A DNA stretch of 64,000 nt from Caldicellulosiruptor hydrothermalis 108 (GTDB lineage Bacteria; Bacillota; Thermoanaerobacteria; Caldicellulosiruptorales; Caldicellulosiruptoraceae). The DNA is taken from NCBI RefSeq assembly GCF_000166355.1, contig NC_014652.1, positions 2,206,928-2,270,927 of the forward strand, written 5' to 3'. The notes beneath the pieces were generated by a model. It had not been told where the DNA came from. It ran no database searches and worked only from the letters and a program-made list of their open reading frames with translations. Made by a program: the position numbers and the translations under genes. This document shows positions 3,795 to 12,785 of this stretch, in pieces. Position 1 is the first letter of the stretch, and each line of letters opens with the position of its first letter.

Positions 3795-4130
3795 TGAGAG
3801 GAAAGCAGCGCAAAATCACTTCTCGCTGCTTGTGGCTTCTAATCTTTAGCCACTTTTTAAAACACTATCTTTAACGCTGGCCTCTTGCCAGCCTTACTAA
3901 CTTTGATATAATTCTTTCTATCTGGGCATGGAATTTAATGTCCTTACCCCCCTGGGTGCGGATTTTTAAATCCCGCTTACCCGCAAACGAGACTATTATT
4001 CCATTCCAGGTAAGTCTAAACTATTTGGCTGGTTGAGGCCAGCTTAAAACCTAATTAAAGCTGGTTCCTCGTATCACTTGCAAGGTTGTATACTTACCTT
4101 CGCTCGGAATGGAAAACTCATGCCCTAATT
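3795..4130 (+). ncRNA. candidate IS110 bridge RNA (non-coding left end)
   Basis: Several clear hairpins lie between the element's left end and the transposase start: GCAGCG/CGCTGC at 3805-3829, GTGGC/GCCAC at 3832-3853, GCTGGC/GCCAGC at 3876-3892, GGGT-GCGGATTT/AAATCCCGC-ACCC at about 3954-3982, and GCTGG/CCAGC at 4028-4043. A longer closing pair (ATGGAAT / ATTCCAT) encloses the fourth. IS110-group elements are known to express a bridge RNA from this region, with two internal loops pairing to target and donor DNA. Assignment here rests on position and structure only; loop sequences were not matched to target DNA. Confidence 0.5.
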
Positions 4131-4165
4131 CAATTTTAAAACTACTTACGAGGAGGTCTTACGCC

Positions 4166-5458
4166 ATGAACTTAAAACCTATTGCCGGGATTGATGTCTC
4201 TAAATATTTCAGCGAAATGGTGGTTATCTCTCCTACAAATGAAATAATCGCTCGCTTGACTATCCATCACAACAATCCCTCTGACTTTGATAGGGCTATC
4301 GAAATCCTTAAAAAAGTTGAAGAGGATTTCGCGGCTCGCCCTACCATCGTCATGGAAGCCACAGGGCATTACCACAAAATCCTCTCCCGCTTCTTTACTT
4401 CTAATGGCTGGGATGTTGCAATTATCAACCCCATCCAATCTAATTCTATCAAAAATGCGGGAGTTAGAAAAGTAAAAAATGATAAAATTGATGCCCTGTG
4501 GATTGCCTTAACTTTCAGACTTACTAACTCTACTACAGCACAACCTTCATCTGAAATCCTTGACTGCTTGAAAAACCTATGCCGTCAGTATTACAACCTC
4601 AGCGATGAGTTAACCTCTTACAAATATAGACTTACTTCTGTCGTCGACCAAATTATGCTCAATTTCAAAGAGGTCTTCCCTGACATTTGCTCTAAAACAT
4701 CTTTGGCTATACTTGAAAACTACCCCACTCCAAACGATATCTTGGGCGCTGACACCGAAAAACTTATTTCCATCATTCAGCAAACTTCTAAAAAAAGCTA
4801 CCAATGGGCTAAAGAAAAATACGAACTACTCATTGCAAAAGCTAAAGAATTTAAGTCTTTTTCTATCTCCAACTTGGCAAATGTTACTATGCTTAAAGTC
4901 TATATTAACATGGTCTTAACTTTACAGCAAAACATCGACAAAATTTTTGAATCCATAAATCAACTTGTTCAGCAGTCTTCACAGACTCAGCCTTCTATAT
5001 CCGAAAATATTAACCTTCTTCAATCTATCCCCGGCATAGGTTTTCTATCCGCTGCAACTATCCTTGCTGAAATAGGTGATTTCGAAAAATTTTCAAAACC
5101 CAATAAACTTGTTGCCTTCTTTGGCATTGATCCTTCCGTAAATCAATCCGGGCAATTTGTCGGCACAAAAAACAAAATGTCTAAACGTGGCTCTAAAATC
5201 TTGCGAAGAATCTTATTTACAATTGCTCTTGCTAATATCAGAACCAAAAGAGATTCTAAGCCTTGTAATCCTGTGCTATTCGAATACTATCAGAAAAAAT
5301 GCCAACAAAAGCCTAAAAAAGTTGCATTAGGCGCTGTTATGAGAAAAATTATTTGTATCATCTTTGCTGTTATGCGTGATAAAAAACCTTTTGAACTTAG
5401 AACTCCTGAGGAACATATTCGAAGATGCTTTAATAACACTGCTGTTTATTGCGTATAA
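4166..5458 (+). CDS. IS110-family transposase (DEDD recombinase)
   Basis: 430 residues from ATG 4166, preferred over an upstream ATG at 4109 because AGGAGG lies just before it. The N-terminal RuvC-like domain carries D10 (AGIDVSK), E64 (VMEATGHY) and D106/D109 (NDKIDALW), matching the IS110 DEDD pattern. The C-terminal Transposase_20 domain includes SIPGIGFLSAATILAEIGDF and a serine in NQSGQFVG, the expected position of the nucleophilic serine. Family members excise as circles and reinsert under guidance of a bridge RNA. The gene appears intact and could be active. It points opposite to the nif genes. Confidence 0.92.
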   Translation: MNLKPIAGIDVSKYFSEMVVISPTNEIIARLTIHHNNPSDFDRAIEILKKVEEDFAARPTIVMEATGHYHKILSRFFTSNGWDVAIINPIQSNSIKNAGVRKVKNDKIDALWIALTFRLTNSTTAQPSSEILDCLKNLCRQYYNLSDELTSYKYRLTSVVDQIMLNFKEVFPDICSKTSLAILENYPTPNDILGADTEKLISIIQQTSKKSYQWAKEKYELLIAKAKEFKSFSISNLANVTMLKVYINMVLTLQQNIDKIFESINQLVQQSSQTQPSISENINLLQSIPGIGFLSAATILAEIGDFEKFSKPNKLVAFFGIDPSVNQSGQFVGTKNKMSKRGSKILRRILFTIALANIRTKRDSKPCNPVLFEYYQKKCQQKPKKVALGAVMRKIICIIFAVMRDKKPFELRTPEEHIRRCFNNTAVYCV

Positions 5459-6393: not shown

Positions 6394-7218
<825 letters not shown>

Positions 7219-7609: not shown

Positions 7610-7954
<345 letters not shown>

Positions 7955-7992: not shown

Positions 7993-9339
7993 TTACTTTA
8001 CTGCCTGAGACTTCATTACAAAGTCACTATACGCTGTTGCACCATGTTCTGCAACGTCAAGACCTTCTATCTCTTCTTCTTCAGAAACTCTGAGTCCAAC
8101 TGTTATTTTGATGATTGCAAAGAGGATAAACGCTGTCACAGTGGTCCATACAAATGTTGATGCAACACCAGCAAGCTGAACCAAAAACTGCTTTATCCCT
8201 CCACCATAGAAAAGTCCGCCATCTAGAGCAAAAAGTCCGACCATCAGTGTTCCAAAAGCTCCACATACGCCATGCACAGAAATTGCACCAACTGGATCGT
8301 CTATCTTGAGTTTCTTGTCGATAAACTCAACAGCCACTACAACCAGTATACCTGCAAGCCCGCCTATTATTGCCGCACCCCATGGGTTGACAGACGCACA
8401 GCCTGCTGTAATTGCAACAAGACCAGCCAAAGCACCGTTTAGTGTCATACTAACGTCTGGTTTTTTGTACTTTAGCCATGTGTATATCATTGCTAAGTTT
8501 GCACCCATCGCAGCTGCCAGGTTGGTGTTGACAGCAATATCGCCAATCTTTTCATTCATACCAGATAAGGTTGAACCTGGGTTAAATCCAAACCAACCAA
8601 ACCACAATATAAACGTTCCAAGTGCTGCCAAGGTTATACTATGACCAGGTATAGCATTTACTTTACCATCTTTTGTGTATTTACCTATTCTTGGTCCAAG
8701 CAATGCAGCACCAATCAGAGCACACCAGCCACCAACAGAATGTACAACAGTTGAACCTGCAAAGTCGATAAATCCAAGTTTGCTCAGCCAACCGCCGCCC
8801 CATGCCCAGTGACCTACAACAGGATAGATGATAAACGAAATTACAGCACTGTAAATGCAATACGCAATAAACTTTGTTCTTTCAGCCATAGCACCTGAGA
8901 CAATTGTTGCAGCTGTTGCAGCAAACACTGTTTGAAACATCAAAAATGATGTAAGCGGAATAGATAGGCCCAAGTGTTTAAATGAATCATTCAGGAAAAA
9001 GCCAGATGTACCGATAAACCCACCTGCGTCTTTCCCAAACATGAATGCAAATCCAAATAGCCAGAATATCACAGAACCAATTGCAAAGTCCATTAAGTTT
9101 TTCATAACAATATTGCTCGCATTTTTTGCTCTGGTAAAGCCTGCTTCCACCATTGCAAATCCTGCTTGCATAAAGAACACCAAAAATGCTGTAACAAGAA
9201 CCCAGACATTATCAACGGCAGTTGCCACTTTATCAGGTGTAACCTGGTCTGCTTTTGCTATTGATGTAACAAGCAGCAAAGTTGCAATTGTTCCTACCGG
9301 GATTAAAAAGGCCTTGTAGTTTTTAATGAGTCTATTCAT
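7993..9339 (-). CDS. amtB: ammonium transporter Amt
   Basis: 448 residues with an N-terminal signal-like hydrophobic segment (residues ~10-30) followed by about eleven membrane segments. The Amt twin histidines appear in VVHSVGGWCAL and ISVHGVCGAFGT. Family motif FGWFGFNPGS is present. It moves ammonium across the cytoplasmic membrane and is usually gated by GlnK, encoded next. Transcription likely starts from the strong promoter at 9581-9609 and passes a terminator-like hairpin in the leader. Confidence 0.96.
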   Translation of the reverse strand: MNRLIKNYKAFLIPVGTIATLLLVTSIAKADQVTPDKVATAVDNVWVLVTAFLVFFMQAGFAMVEAGFTRAKNASNIVMKNLMDFAIGSVIFWLFGFAFMFGKDAGGFIGTSGFFLNDSFKHLGLSIPLTSFLMFQTVFAATAATIVSGAMAERTKFIAYCIYSAVISFIIYPVVGHWAWGGGWLSKLGFIDFAGSTVVHSVGGWCALIGAALLGPRIGKYTKDGKVNAIPGHSITLAALGTFILWFGWFGFNPGSTLSGMNEKIGDIAVNTNLAAAMGANLAMIYTWLKYKKPDVSMTLNGALAGLVAITAGCASVNPWGAAIIGGLAGILVVVAVEFIDKKLKIDDPVGAISVHGVCGAFGTLMVGLFALDGGLFYGGGIKQFLVQLAGVASTFVWTTVTAFILFAIIKITVGLRVSEEEEIEGLDVAEHGATAYSDFVMKSQAVK

Positions 9340-9511
9340 CTTTAAAAACCCTCCTTAAACCTAACTTTTTACTGATACAACTTTGTTCACTTGCCCTGCG
9401 CCCCCTTTTCAAAGTAAAGATTCTCTGGTATAATGAAAAAGCACACAATTTTTAAAAAGAGAAGATTGAAAAACCAAAGGCATGTGTGGAGACGGATAAA
9501 ATTGGGTAATT

Positions 9512-9553
9512 AAAAAAGGCAAAGGCAACCTTCTGAAAGGCGCCTTTGCCTTT
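9512..9553 (-). terminator. terminator-like hairpin in the amtB leader (possible attenuator)
   Basis: On the reverse strand GGCAAAGGC...GCCTTTGCC forms a strong stem with an inner CCTT/AAGG hairpin and is followed by six T residues. It lies about 30-70 nt after the promoter at 9581-9609 and about 170 nt before the amtB start. As drawn it would stop most transcripts before amtB, which suggests regulated readthrough. It can also form on the other strand, but no rightward gene ends here. Confidence 0.6.
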
Positions 9554-9580
9554 CTTTCTTTATTCTCTTTGTTTACTCTC

Positions 9581-9609
9581 ATTATATTCTTCATTTTGCA
9601 ATTTGTCAA
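9581..9609 (-). promoter_or_regulatory. amtB promoter, consensus sigma-A type
   Basis: On the reverse strand TTGACA (9604-9609) and TATAAT (9581-9586) are separated by exactly 17 bp, a perfect consensus. The next gene in that direction is amtB. Confidence 0.8.
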
Positions 9610-9846
9610 TACCAAAATTGCATTTTATTTTATATAAAGTTTTTAAGGTAATTTATAATTGTTTTAGATATAGTATATAAAAAGTAATATATATTTGTAT
9701 AATTTGTGTTTCGTTAATTAAATCTTACAATACCTTATTAGTCAATTATCGCCTGATAATAAATTTGCAAGATATAATCTCACATAAACTTTTTAGATTC
9801 AAATTAAATCAAGTTAAATTTGAGCTAATTAAATTATTTTTTATGG
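9610..9846. other. AT-rich intergenic DNA upstream of the amtB promoter
   Basis: Very AT-rich, without an open frame that looks real. It ends at the target duplication of IS copy 2. I see nothing else I can support here. Confidence 0.5.
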
Positions 9847-9864: not shown

Positions 9865-11696
9865 TAGGCGTTTGCAAAATAGGTGGTGATTGAAGGTAAA
9901 AGGCACCAATACTAACATGAAATACAATCAAGATACAAAAAGAAAAGAGAAGTGAAAACCAAATATTATCAATACCAGCAAAAATAATCAGCAACAAACA
10001 TATGACAAAAATTAACAACTTCAAAAAAGACAATAATATCCTAAGCCTTCTTAACTCCTTGTTTTAGAAGGTTAAGTAAAAACAAAACCAGAAATTTTTT
10101 GTAAGAAATAGATTTAAAAAATAGTAGTATTAAGCGATAAGTTTTTTGAGCTTGTTAAGTTTTTTGATAGTCAATTTAGAGCAATAGAGTTTGATATTGT
10201 GAGCGAGAATAAACAAGAGCGAGAAAGTAATGGCAGATAGCAAGAAATCAGAGAAAATAGAAATATGGTCATAAGTAGAGATAGTATCAGAGCCCATGTA
10301 GGATTTCAGGTGGTAAATAGTCTGCTCTACAGCGACACGTTTTTTGTAGAGGTCAAAAAACTCTTGTGAATTTCTGTTGATACCTGGGAAAGAGCGAAAG
10401 TTATCTGGGTATGTATAGAACATTCTACCCGATTTAGAGGTAGTACAAGGCTGAGGGCAAGAGCAGATGCGTTTGCCATCTTTGTATTGTGACATAGGGC
10501 AAGTCCATTTAAGGCGCAAAGAGCGATTTTTACCCTGACATTTGCCTTCGGGTTTAAAAGGTTTGTTGAACTTTTTGCAGATAGGGATACCATCTTCAGA
10601 AATAACGATATTGGGGTCTGATGTAGGTGTAGTATTTTTAGAAGCTCTTGTATTTAGTGGAATAACGATTTTGGAGAAGTTAAAGGTATTTTTTAAAGTG
10701 GAGTATATGTTGTGGGAATCCAAAGCACTGTCGGCGATGAAAGTGGAGAAATTTTTGGGGATATAAGAGAATAAAGTTTCGAGCGAAGGAATTAAACCTT
10801 TAGAGTCGGAGATAGCTTTTGCTTCTTGTGGGTCAGAGGAAGGGGAATCATAGTTAAACAGAGGTACTAAAGCTAAAGGGATACCGAGAGCGTTGGTAAT
10901 GACTGCAAATTTTAAAGCCCAGCAGAAATGGCCATTTACAAACATAAGACGGATGTTAGAATTAGCGTTAGCAGTTTTAGGCAAAGAAGAATAAACGAGA
11001 GAGTAGACTTTTTCAGAGGGAAGTTCAGGGTTAGCTTTTGAGGTATTTTTCAGCAGTAGATGAATGAATTTAGGATTGTTTTCACGAACCTTTGGGACAA
11101 TACCTGTTGTGTCGAAGATTAAGATTGAAGAATCTTGAGGGCATTGTTGGATGGAAATATTATGTGCATGGATAGAGATATTTTGAAAAAGTTTATGGAT
11201 TTCACTTGCAAATATTTTTCTAAAGCGAGAGAGAGTAGAGATAGAAGGGACATTGCCATGAAGATTACAAAATGAGCGAAGTTCGAATGAGTTGAGTAAG
11301 ACAGCACGAAGCTGAGTTAAAGTATTGAGTTTGAGCAATTTTTGGACGAGGAAGCAACAAAGCATAGATTCTAAAGAGAAGTATCTATGCTTACCGAAAT
11401 ATTTGTAGTAGGCATTGTAGAAAGAAGAAGGTATATAATGTGACAAGTCAATGAATTTATTGAACAAGCCCAAGAGGCTTTCAGGCTTGTAGAGAGCCGA
11501 AGCCTTTAGGTGGGAGAATAGGTCTATGAAAGAAAGTTGTTTAGGTTTGGTGTTGAACATTTTGGAACCCTCCTCATAGTAGAAAATTTGTTTTATATAA
11601 TCATATTTTACTACAATTATGAGGAGGGTGACCAGTCTTTTTTGATTCTATGTAAAGCTTGATAACGCTCATCTTGAGCGTTTTTGCAAAAGGCTA
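9865..11696 (-). mobile_element. DDE insertion sequence, copy 2 (inverted relative to copy 1)
   Basis: Same element as 1848-3678 on the opposite strand, 1832 bp, with the same inverted repeats and the same encoded protein. It is flanked by its own perfect 18-bp direct repeat, so it is a separate insertion and not the second end of a composite transposon. It separates the amtB region from the nucleotidyltransferase gene at 11746. Confidence 0.9.
10130..11560 (-). CDS. DDE transposase of IS copy 2
   Basis: 476 residues, identical in amino-acid sequence to the transposase at 1983-3413. Candidate catalytic residues D150, D277 and E412 and the cysteine cluster at 341-372 are all retained. Both copies are therefore potentially active. 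Confidence 0.88.
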   Translation of the reverse strand: MFNTKPKQLSFIDLFSHLKASALYKPESLLGLFNKFIDLSHYIPSSFYNAYYKYFGKHRYFSLESMLCCFLVQKLLKLNTLTQLRAVLLNSFELRSFCNLHGNVPSISTLSRFRKIFASEIHKLFQNISIHAHNISIQQCPQDSSILIFDTTGIVPKVRENNPKFIHLLLKNTSKANPELPSEKVYSLVYSSLPKTANANSNIRLMFVNGHFCWALKFAVITNALGIPLALVPLFNYDSPSSDPQEAKAISDSKGLIPSLETLFSYIPKNFSTFIADSALDSHNIYSTLKNTFNFSKIVIPLNTRASKNTTPTSDPNIVISEDGIPICKKFNKPFKPEGKCQGKNRSLRLKWTCPMSQYKDGKRICSCPQPCTTSKSGRMFYTYPDNFRSFPGINRNSQEFFDLYKKRVAVEQTIYHLKSYMGSDTISTYDHISIFSDFLLSAITFSLLFILAHNIKLYCSKLTIKKLNKLKKLIA

Positions 11697-11745: not shown

Positions 11746-12459
11746 ATGATGGATATGGAAGTATTAGACTCAGTAGGATATGAAATATGTAGAAATATCG
11801 CTAAAAGCAATTTGTCAAAAAAATTCTATCTTGCAGGAGGTACTGCATTGGCATTGCAACTTCGCCATAGAAAGTCATATGATTTAGATTTTTTTCAAAA
11901 AGAAGTTAGCGAAAAAATAGAATTTGAATATATTTACAATGTCTTAACTCAGTTTTTCTCTAAAAGAGATGTAAATATCGTTGTAAAGCAAGTTGACCAA
12001 ATGACTTCTACTATATGTGGAGTAAAGGTAAGTTTCATTGCATATCCTTTCCCTTTGATTGAACCATTAGTCCAAGGTGATAAAATAGACATTCGTTTAA
12101 AAGGAATCAATTTAGCATCTCCAAAGGAAATAGCTTTGATGAAAGCGTATACCATCGGTAGACGACCAACATATAGAGATTATATTGACTTGTATTTTTT
12201 ACTCAAAAAAGGTATTGTTAATTTAGAGTATATTTTAGAGAAAGCACCCCAGAAATTTGTAATAGAAGGTGAATCAGTTTTTTCAAAGAAATTGTTCTTA
12301 GAACAACTTATGTATACAGAAGATATAATTGATAAAGAAACAGCATTAATCTCTGTAATAGGTGAAGCACCAAAAGTAGGTGAAATAGAAAGGTTTTTAA
12401 CTCAGCAAGCTAAAATAGCAATTGAAAAGTATATAAAGAAAAGAGGTATGCTACCATGA
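11746..12459 (+). CDS. AbiEii-like nucleotidyltransferase (putative toxin)
   Basis: 237 residues. The N-terminal motif YLAGGTALALQLRHRKSYDLDFF (positions ~28-50) has the GG(S/T)xxxxx and DxDF signature of the nucleotidyltransferase AbiEii/DUF1814 family, and TYRDYIDLYFLL (~145-157) matches the later family motif. AbiEii-type proteins are toxins of abortive-infection or toxin-antitoxin systems that modify nucleic acids. AAGGAG precedes the ATG. Its stop overlaps the start of the next gene (ATGA), so the two are coupled. IS copy 2 lies immediately upstream and separates it from its earlier promoter context. A non-toxic housekeeping role cannot be excluded. Confidence 0.8.
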   Translation: MMDMEVLDSVGYEICRNIAKSNLSKKFYLAGGTALALQLRHRKSYDLDFFQKEVSEKIEFEYIYNVLTQFFSKRDVNIVVKQVDQMTSTICGVKVSFIAYPFPLIEPLVQGDKIDIRLKGINLASPKEIALMKAYTIGRRPTYRDYIDLYFLLKKGIVNLEYILEKAPQKFVIEGESVFSKKLFLEQLMYTEDIIDKETALISVIGEAPKVGEIERFLTQQAKIAIEKYIKKRGMLP

Positions 12460-12785
12460 AACTTCCAGAGGATTTTAAAATCTTATTCAAAAATTATAAC
12501 TTTGAAATGTTAGATACAGAAAAACACAAAGAATTAATAATAAAGACAGTATTAGCAAATGGCAATTGGGAACATATTGAAAAACTTTTTACTTTTTATA
12601 GCTCCAACGAAATAAAAGATGTATTCTTAAAAGACTTCTATGGAGCTAGAGAACTTCCTATACCTACAATTTATCTTTGGGGAAGTATATTTCTTGATGA
12701 AAAAGAGTATTGGGAATATAGAAATATGAGAAGTAAGATGAACTTGGTAGAAAAATGGAAACAGACAAGAAAGATACACAAGTAA
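12456..12785 (+). CDS. small partner of the AbiEii-like protein (putative antitoxin)
   Basis: 109 residues, soluble, no signal peptide. It begins MKLPEDFKILFKNY and contains YGARELPIPTIYLWG. It resembles small uncharacterised proteins (DUF6922-like) that accompany nucleotidyltransferase genes; this is from memory of the family, not from a search. The 4-bp overlap with the upstream gene argues for a two-gene module. The order is toxin-like first, partner second, unlike classical abiEi-abiEii. Role as antitoxin is inferred from context only. Confidence 0.6.
   Translation: MKLPEDFKILFKNYNFEMLDTEKHKELIIKTVLANGNWEHIEKLFTFYSSNEIKDVFLKDFYGARELPIPTIYLWGSIFLDEKEYWEYRNMRSKMNLVEKWKQTRKIHK

Follow-up and report, generated by a model that had tools for sequence, protein, structure and literature searches.

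The window analysed here, a stretch of 64,000 nucleotides (64 kb) from Caldicellulosiruptor hydrothermalis 108, carries an ammonium transporter gene (amtB) on its minus strand, followed on that strand by P-II and nifH genes, with transposase genes on both flanks:

4109-5458, plus strand: transposase gene of IS110 type, one flank of the amtB-nifH-P-II stretch
6370-6053 and 6035-5655, minus strand: two P-II (nifI-type) genes after nifH (PF00543)
6394-7215, minus strand: nifH (PF00142)
7610-7948, minus strand: P-II (GlnB/GlnK-like) gene directly downstream of amtB (PF00543, E 3e-32)
7993-9339, minus strand: amtB, ammonium transporter (PF00909, E 5.4e-137)
10130-11560, minus strand: transposase gene, DUF772/DDE_Tnp_1, the other flank
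11746-12459, plus strand: AbiEii-type nucleotidyl transferase gene (PF08843)

The P-II gene next to amtB lies on the same strand after a gap of 44 nt, and is therefore probably part of the amtB transcript. A small open reading frame (12456-12785) overlaps the end of the AbiEii-type gene.

Promoter, terminator and hexaloop upstream of amtB

Upstream of amtB we identified the following elements, several of which share the same bases:

9597-9622, no strand assigned: palindrome TGCAATTT-N10-AAATTGCA over the -35 box, inside the conserved block; putative operator
9581-9609, minus strand: consensus sigma-A type promoter TTGACA-17-TATAAT (-35 box 9609-9604, -10 box 9586-9581), scoring 12/12
9555-9574, minus strand: expected transcript start (about 9574, placed from the -10 box) and A-rich leader of about 20 nt
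9535-9554, minus strand: putative antiterminator (P2-like) hairpin GAAAGGC[AAAGGC]GCCUUUC, hexaloop 9547-9542 with A1 and G4
9512-9553, minus strand: intrinsic terminator AAAGGCAAAGGC...GCCUUUGCCUUU followed by U6, mutually exclusive with the hexaloop hairpin
9406-9434, plus strand: extended -10 TGGTATAAT (9426-9434) with a weak -35; conserved at all 9 amtB loci of this type in the genus

The first-pass annotation had described a perfect promoter running within about 30 nt into a strong hairpin with a U6 tract, about 170 nt before amtB. Measurement bears out both statements, with a 12/12 hexamer match, about 26 nt between the -10 box and the terminator stem, and 172 nt from the hairpin to the amtB ATG (gene start at 9339). 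A perfect TTGACA-16/18-TATAAT occurs a single time in the 64 kb window, and at least once in 7 of 100 shuffles. On the minus strand the 5' arm of the terminator is AAAGGCAAAGGC (9553-9542) and the 3' arm is GCCTTTGCCTTT (9526-9515), which leads into the six T of 9517-9512. For the 70-nt leader the fold energy is -27.6 kcal/mol, compared with -11.8 on average in shuffles (z = -5.98, equalled by 0 of 200 shuffles), while the fold of the entire 235 nt as far as amtB is unremarkable relative to shuffles (z = -1.29). Taken with the conservation described below, these fold statistics rule out a chance hairpin. Rfam covariance models gave 0 matches at gathering threshold in the window, and a riboswitch was ruled out on this ground as the identity of the leader. 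The promoter scan detected no minus-strand promoter of at least 9/12 between the hairpin and amtB (9511 to 9340), suggesting that amtB probably depends on transcription reading through the hairpin.

Key to the interpretation of this leader is the ability of the terminator's 5' arm to refold as the hairpin AAAGGC[AAAGGC]GCCUUU, which is the P2 motif of ANTAR targets. Its loop is a hexanucleotide, [AAAGGC], with A at position 1 and G at position 4, and is closed by a C-G pair (GC[AAAGGC]GC), in agreement with the loop and closing-pair rules in the accessible text of PMC3369931; the hairpin also overlaps the 5' arm of an intrinsic terminator, as the ANTAR overlap rule has it. Since hexaloop hairpin and terminator use the same bases, only one of them can form at a time. 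At 37 C the predicted energies are -6.2 kcal/mol for the six-pair hexaloop hairpin and -23.8 kcal/mol for the terminator, and at 75 C about 0 and -8.9 kcal/mol, respectively. The terminator outweighs its competitor in these predictions, so termination would be the default and something, presumably a protein, would have to hold the hexaloop.

The perfect palindrome over the -35 box lies in the conserved block, so transcription initiation may be regulated too; TGCAATTT-N10-AAATTGCA has 1 match and 0 in 100 shuffles, for a pattern defined post hoc. It is the minus (amtB) strand that has the perfect U6 tract; the plus strand beyond the hairpin is likewise T-rich, and the hairpin may therefore be bidirectional. 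The terminator scan reported it in the plus-strand reading only. The extended -10 TGGTATAAT, as read from its sequence, could give rise to an antisense RNA against the amtB leader that would end at the amtB hairpin.

Conservation and recurrence of the leader in Caldicellulosiruptor

Of 12 genomes of the genus, the 9 that have this amtB, and no others, carry the element formed by promoter, leader and hairpin. The 121-bp block of G000 is 95.0-99.2% identical to that of 7 other genomes, and the -35 and -10 hexamers are identical across these 8 aligned genomes. For the five genomes of the other clade, the block is 95.0-99.2% identical to that of G000, as against 80.7-81.8% for the amtB coding region, 40.7-45.0% for the segment from hairpin to ATG and 77.5-89.8% for the 127 bp upstream of the block. 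In the two genomes of the same clade, block and coding region differ little (99.2 and 96.8%; 98.3 and 97.9%). In the ninth genome, G006, the block is 99% intact and stands about 1.7 kb ahead of amtB, past an insertion element. An ISL3-type transposase gene (L004 / L023) lies between promoter-hairpin block and amtB in G006, a natural separation of the putative attenuator and its gene.

A mobile repeat was rejected as an explanation for the element, the matches listed comprising 9 orthologous places at 95-100% identity and otherwise weaker, partial matches; those of the weaker matches that were inspected, again among the matches listed, were for the most part copies of leaders or sequences resembling the promoter. 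The leaders of L033, L038, L043, L044 and L048, which carry what we take to be FMN riboswitches, also matched; these matches were set aside as promoter resemblance only. A second hexaloop nearer amtB, gcgc[AAGGAG]gtgt, seen by eye in L005 and L007, is not kept in G000 and was likewise discarded.

A similar design recurs in front of other genes. The second amtB of the genus has an unrelated leader, consisting in 12/12 genomes of TTGACA-17-TATAAT, 11 nt and tgcc[AATGGG]ggca inside a terminator, with a promoter spacer that is variable among the 12. In addition, we searched the genus with the pattern AAGGCRAAG...CTTYGCCTTT, which fixes the terminator arms and leaves the GCC that closes the hexaloop free. 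This returned 18 distinct places in the 12 genomes and GCC in 18/18, many of the places being orthologous, so that the independent cases are few. They comprise 9 amtB leaders, 6 leaders of a Peripla_BP_6 gene and 3 others in G003. Peripla_BP_6 leaders number 7 in all, the seventh being that of G000 (L036, G000:C1:2200763-2200803, outside the window, its gene sitting behind an HMGL-like, homocitrate-synthase-like gene), which is not one of the 18, its sequence departing from the pattern by one extra T. The identity of the gene comes from Pfam in 6 of the 7 cases and from translation in the remaining one (G002). The hexaloop stem is only 3 bp in 3 of the 7 leaders, and these were retained as orthologues of the 7-bp ones although they fail the stem rule given below. 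In G008 (L035) the Peripla_BP_6 frame has 334 codons and no start near the leader, and the gene may be broken.

In G003, a single copy (L034) precedes an alanine dehydrogenase gene (AlaDh_PNT), with G and not A as the first base of its hexaloop; another (L167) precedes a class III aminotransferase (PF00202), which on our own reading is of GABA type; and L046 lies about 0.8 kb before an alanine-racemase-like gene. Eleven other GCAAAGRNGC terminators of the genus, inspected among the matches listed, were not counted, their stems having 2 bp (7) or 3 bp (4); by eye, most of them are at gene ends. A control search with the pattern reversed gave 1 hit and was set aside as unfair, since the reversed pattern contains CG pairs. 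Of these terminators, one in G003 (L368, G003:C1:391951-391988) combines a promoter with a ggc[AAAGGT]gcc terminator of 3-bp stem and may be another leader; the first long open frame on its strand starts about 1.4 kb downstream.

The element and ANTAR genes across bacteria

Other genera of the class have the amtB leader aaaggc[AAAGGC]gccttt in 3 genomes. The stem has changed with compensation in L202, from another genus (aaaaagc[AAAGGC]gcttttt), and the amtB leaders L203 and L204 have two tandem elements each. Among 17 amtB loci of the class, 6 have the element and 10, which belong to another amtB family and to ANTAR-bearing genomes (including G092), have none; the seventeenth, L214, was read at the wrong place.

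To place these leaders in a broader context we used two sets of loci. The first comprised 80 amtB loci of named genomes, and it was in this set that the recurrence of the motif was first noticed. Hairpins of the form c[AAAGRN]g have a density there of 0.589 per kb (19 hairpins) immediately before amtB; the figures for the rest of that strand and for the opposite strand are 0.036 (18) and 0.015 (8) per kb, respectively. An earlier co-occurrence test with a looser motif gave an ANTAR gene in 14/15 loci with the motif and in 29/65 otherwise; the sole exception, L072, has no overlapping terminator. After seeing these loci we fixed the rule for an element as an A1/G4 hexaloop closed by C-G, with a stem of at least 4 pairs that overlaps a terminator. 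The second set, from the same phylum, Bacillota, comprised 93 of 131 amtB-positive genomes, hand-picked before their leaders were read, with one place each. It omits the genus itself, G107 (which had been seen before), near-duplicates and places that matched only in part or were unlisted, and may share species with the 80 loci.

Under this rule the element precedes amtB in 19/43 ANTAR-bearing versus 0/37 ANTAR-lacking genomes of the first set (p = 1.4e-6), and in 36/75 ANTAR-positive versus 0/18 ANTAR-negative genomes of the phylum set (p = 6.7e-5), p-values that are too small, because the tests ignore kinship, although the direction is secure. The other 39 of the 75 ANTAR-positive genomes in the phylum set had no element before the amtB examined. 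Loop positions 1 and 4 read A/G in 27 elements of the first set against 14 for all other pairs (5 of these G/G), and in 43 elements of the phylum set against 13 for the other fifteen pairs together (7 of these G/G). The first set also contains 19 further A1/G4 elements away from amtB (473,595 bases, same strand), and the phylum set has only 2 on the opposite strand. The phylum search constrained the identity of the first, closing pair only; the second loop pair is purine-pyrimidine in 43/43 phylum elements, and is C-G in the second amtB of the genus. In four genomes (G092, G120, G162 and G251) the distance between an amtB and an ANTAR gene is about 1.2 kb or less; in G092, no element was present in the 420 nt read at that amtB.

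In 12/12 genomes of the genus a single ANTAR gene exceeds the Pfam cut-off. In G000 this gene (G000:C1:2137089-2137247; PF03861, 73.3 bits, cut-off 27.3) sits between an HD-domain gene and a glutamine-amidotransferase-like gene. The receiver domain of the protein is degenerate (19.8 bits, below the Pfam cut-off of 30.2), and the phospho-accepting Asp of EutV aligns with Glu in 12/12 proteins of the genus. This difference from EutV could mean that Glu mimics phosphorylation, or that the signal arrives another way. Tyr164 of EutV, which stacks on G4 according to the accessible text of PMC8934654, appears to align with Met in 12/12 proteins (assuming a small numbering offset), a point against an identical binding mode.

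A single hexaloop and competing readings

The amtB leader resembles the EutV/eutP, NasR/nasF and AmiR/amiE attenuators in its A1/G4 hexaloop, its closing C-G pair and the overlap with the 5' arm of the terminator, as well as in its association with nitrogen genes and with an ANTAR gene in the genome. Unlike the dual-hexaloop systems, it is without an upstream P1, the hairpin beginning some 20 nt after the predicted start of the transcript. The first-pass annotation had predicted paired hexaloop ANTAR sites, and the search for them did not confirm this. A scan of the 25 nt upstream in 14 Caldicellulosiruptor rows, that of the window among them, found no second hexaloop, and the A-rich leader of about 20 nt has too few pyrimidines for one. 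In the second amtB leader the stem follows the -10 box after only 11 nt, which leaves little space for P1. The leader of the window thus stands outside the dual-hexaloop ANTAR family as defined.

Across the phylum elements the picture is mixed. An A1/G4 hexaloop of at least 3 bp lies within 30 nt upstream in 7/43, part of which is background, since other letter pairs reach up to 6/43 (G/T); a stricter scan (4 bp, 2 G-C pairs) gave 5/43 for A1/G4 versus at most 3 for other pairs. By eye, L261 and L263 have a G1/G4 upstream hexaloop. Among 15 elements with a promoter of at least 10/12, 4 have no room for P1 and 2 have one. Another scan of 25 nt upstream found P1 in 2/36 rows (near-duplicates counted), a plausible dual form in L131 and an A/T-only one in L202. 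The presence of P1 candidates in some phylum elements and not in others suggests that both dual and single forms exist; judging from these sequences, the single form looks the commoner of the two before amtB, and a P1 of unusual shape is possible in the remaining elements.

For EutV, in the accessible texts, deletion of P1 abolished induction (PMC3369931) and a lengthened linker abolished antitermination (PMC8934654); the linkers in eut are 5-12 nt long. Walshe et al. 2022 (PMC8934654), as far as the accessible text goes, report that a dimer cannot hold both hexaloops simultaneously and that binding to P1 and P2 does not differ significantly. There the minimal ANTAR site is redefined as one hexaloop, two being kept for antitermination with P1 as a recruitment hairpin, and further work on single hexaloops is called for. 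One A1/G4 hexaloop hairpin, as found here, corresponds to the minimal site in that text. The same text notes a single extra hexaloop in the context of EutX / Rli55, the ANTAR-sequestering small RNA. EutX / Rli55 likewise carries ANTAR hexaloops, but that of amtB lies within a terminator before a gene, in the manner of an attenuator. The covariance search in the accessible text of PMC3369931 found ANTAR-target matches in other bacteria, upstream of genes for ammonium transporters, P-II proteins and nitrogenase; its model was built on two hairpins, and single-hexaloop leaders are therefore expected to be missed. Caldicellulosiruptor is absent from the main text of that paper, supplementary tables apart. 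Among the literature matches listed, with subscription papers mostly outside their scope, there is no report of single-hexaloop attenuators before amtB, nor of ANTAR control in Caldicellulosiruptor.

We consider it quite probable that the amtB leader is an ANTAR-type transcription attenuator with a single hexaloop, its protein binding, signal and direction of control being what we infer. RNA polymerase would start at the consensus promoter TTGACA-17-TATAAT, and by default the first ~60 nt would form the terminator, leaving amtB off. Nitrogen shortage would activate the single ANTAR protein of the genus, which would grip the hairpin AAAGGC[AAAGGC]GCCUUU as it emerges from the polymerase and so hold the 5' arm of the terminator; transcription may then continue into amtB, the P-II gene and possibly nifH. 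The ANTAR reading is supported by the overlap of hexaloop and terminator, the recurrence of the design before other nitrogen and amino-acid genes, the one ANTAR gene in 12/12 genomes, and the way in which the element tracks ANTAR genes. Counted against it are the missing P1, the Met for Tyr164, the degenerate receiver, the element-free amtB genes and the insertion element of G006.

These points have to be weighed against other readings. The promoter and terminator might encode a stand-alone small RNA of ~60 nt, either regulatory or an EutX-like ANTAR decoy, leaving amtB without read-through control. Such an RNA would account for a promoter-leader-hairpin block that is more conserved between clades than the amtB coding region and that stays 99% intact in G006 despite the insertion element before amtB; we nevertheless regard it as unlikely, given that unrelated sequences of like layout stand directly before coding regions (the second amtB and the periplasmic-binding protein), that the hexaloop would be buried in the stem of the terminated RNA, and that there is no minus-strand promoter of at least 9/12 from hairpin to amtB. 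A similar attenuator could also respond to a small ligand, or to an RNA-binding protein other than ANTAR, a reading to which the absent P1 and the apparent Met in place of the G4-stacking aromatic residue both lend weight, ANTAR binding here being a prediction from sequence. The enriched loop letters, however, are exactly those known for ANTAR targets, there are 0 elements before the examined amtB in the 18 + 37 ANTAR-lacking genomes of the two sets, and the window is without an Rfam match at gathering threshold, all of which makes a reader other than ANTAR quite unlikely. Finally, an ordinary, unregulated leaky terminator, or a bidirectional one serving a plus-strand RNA, would give amtB low constant expression. 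The conserved plus-strand extended -10 TGGTATAAT could indeed drive an RNA that ends at the amtB hairpin, but this reading leaves unexplained why the hexaloop letters are conserved, why copies stand before other genes and why the element goes with ANTAR genes, and we give it very little credence.

We therefore return to the ANTAR attenuator. The first-pass annotation had proposed regulated antitermination, with ANTAR as one example; an A1/G4 hexaloop in the terminator, its recurrence and its co-occurrence with ANTAR genes carry that proposal, while its expectation of paired hexaloops falls away. Regulated antitermination, and ANTAR in particular, is thus a well supported prediction, and our verdict is that the amtB leader would work like an ANTAR attenuator and fits the single-hexaloop minimal site.

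More broadly, we lean towards the view that single-hexaloop ANTAR attenuators behind strong promoters, without P1, may form a widespread natural class controlling ammonium transporters, and that the two amtB genes of Caldicellulosiruptor may both be controlled in this manner by one ANTAR protein, the Glu in its receiver being phosphomimetic. Natural attenuators with one hexaloop and no space for a second make the need for P1 directly testable. The accessible text of PMC8209448 states that C. bescii, another member of the genus, has no nif genes. According to the same text, Caldicellulosiruptor is said to lack nifA, and its response to ammonium is left open there; for a genus so described, the present analysis names a candidate regulator of amtB and possibly of the nif genes.
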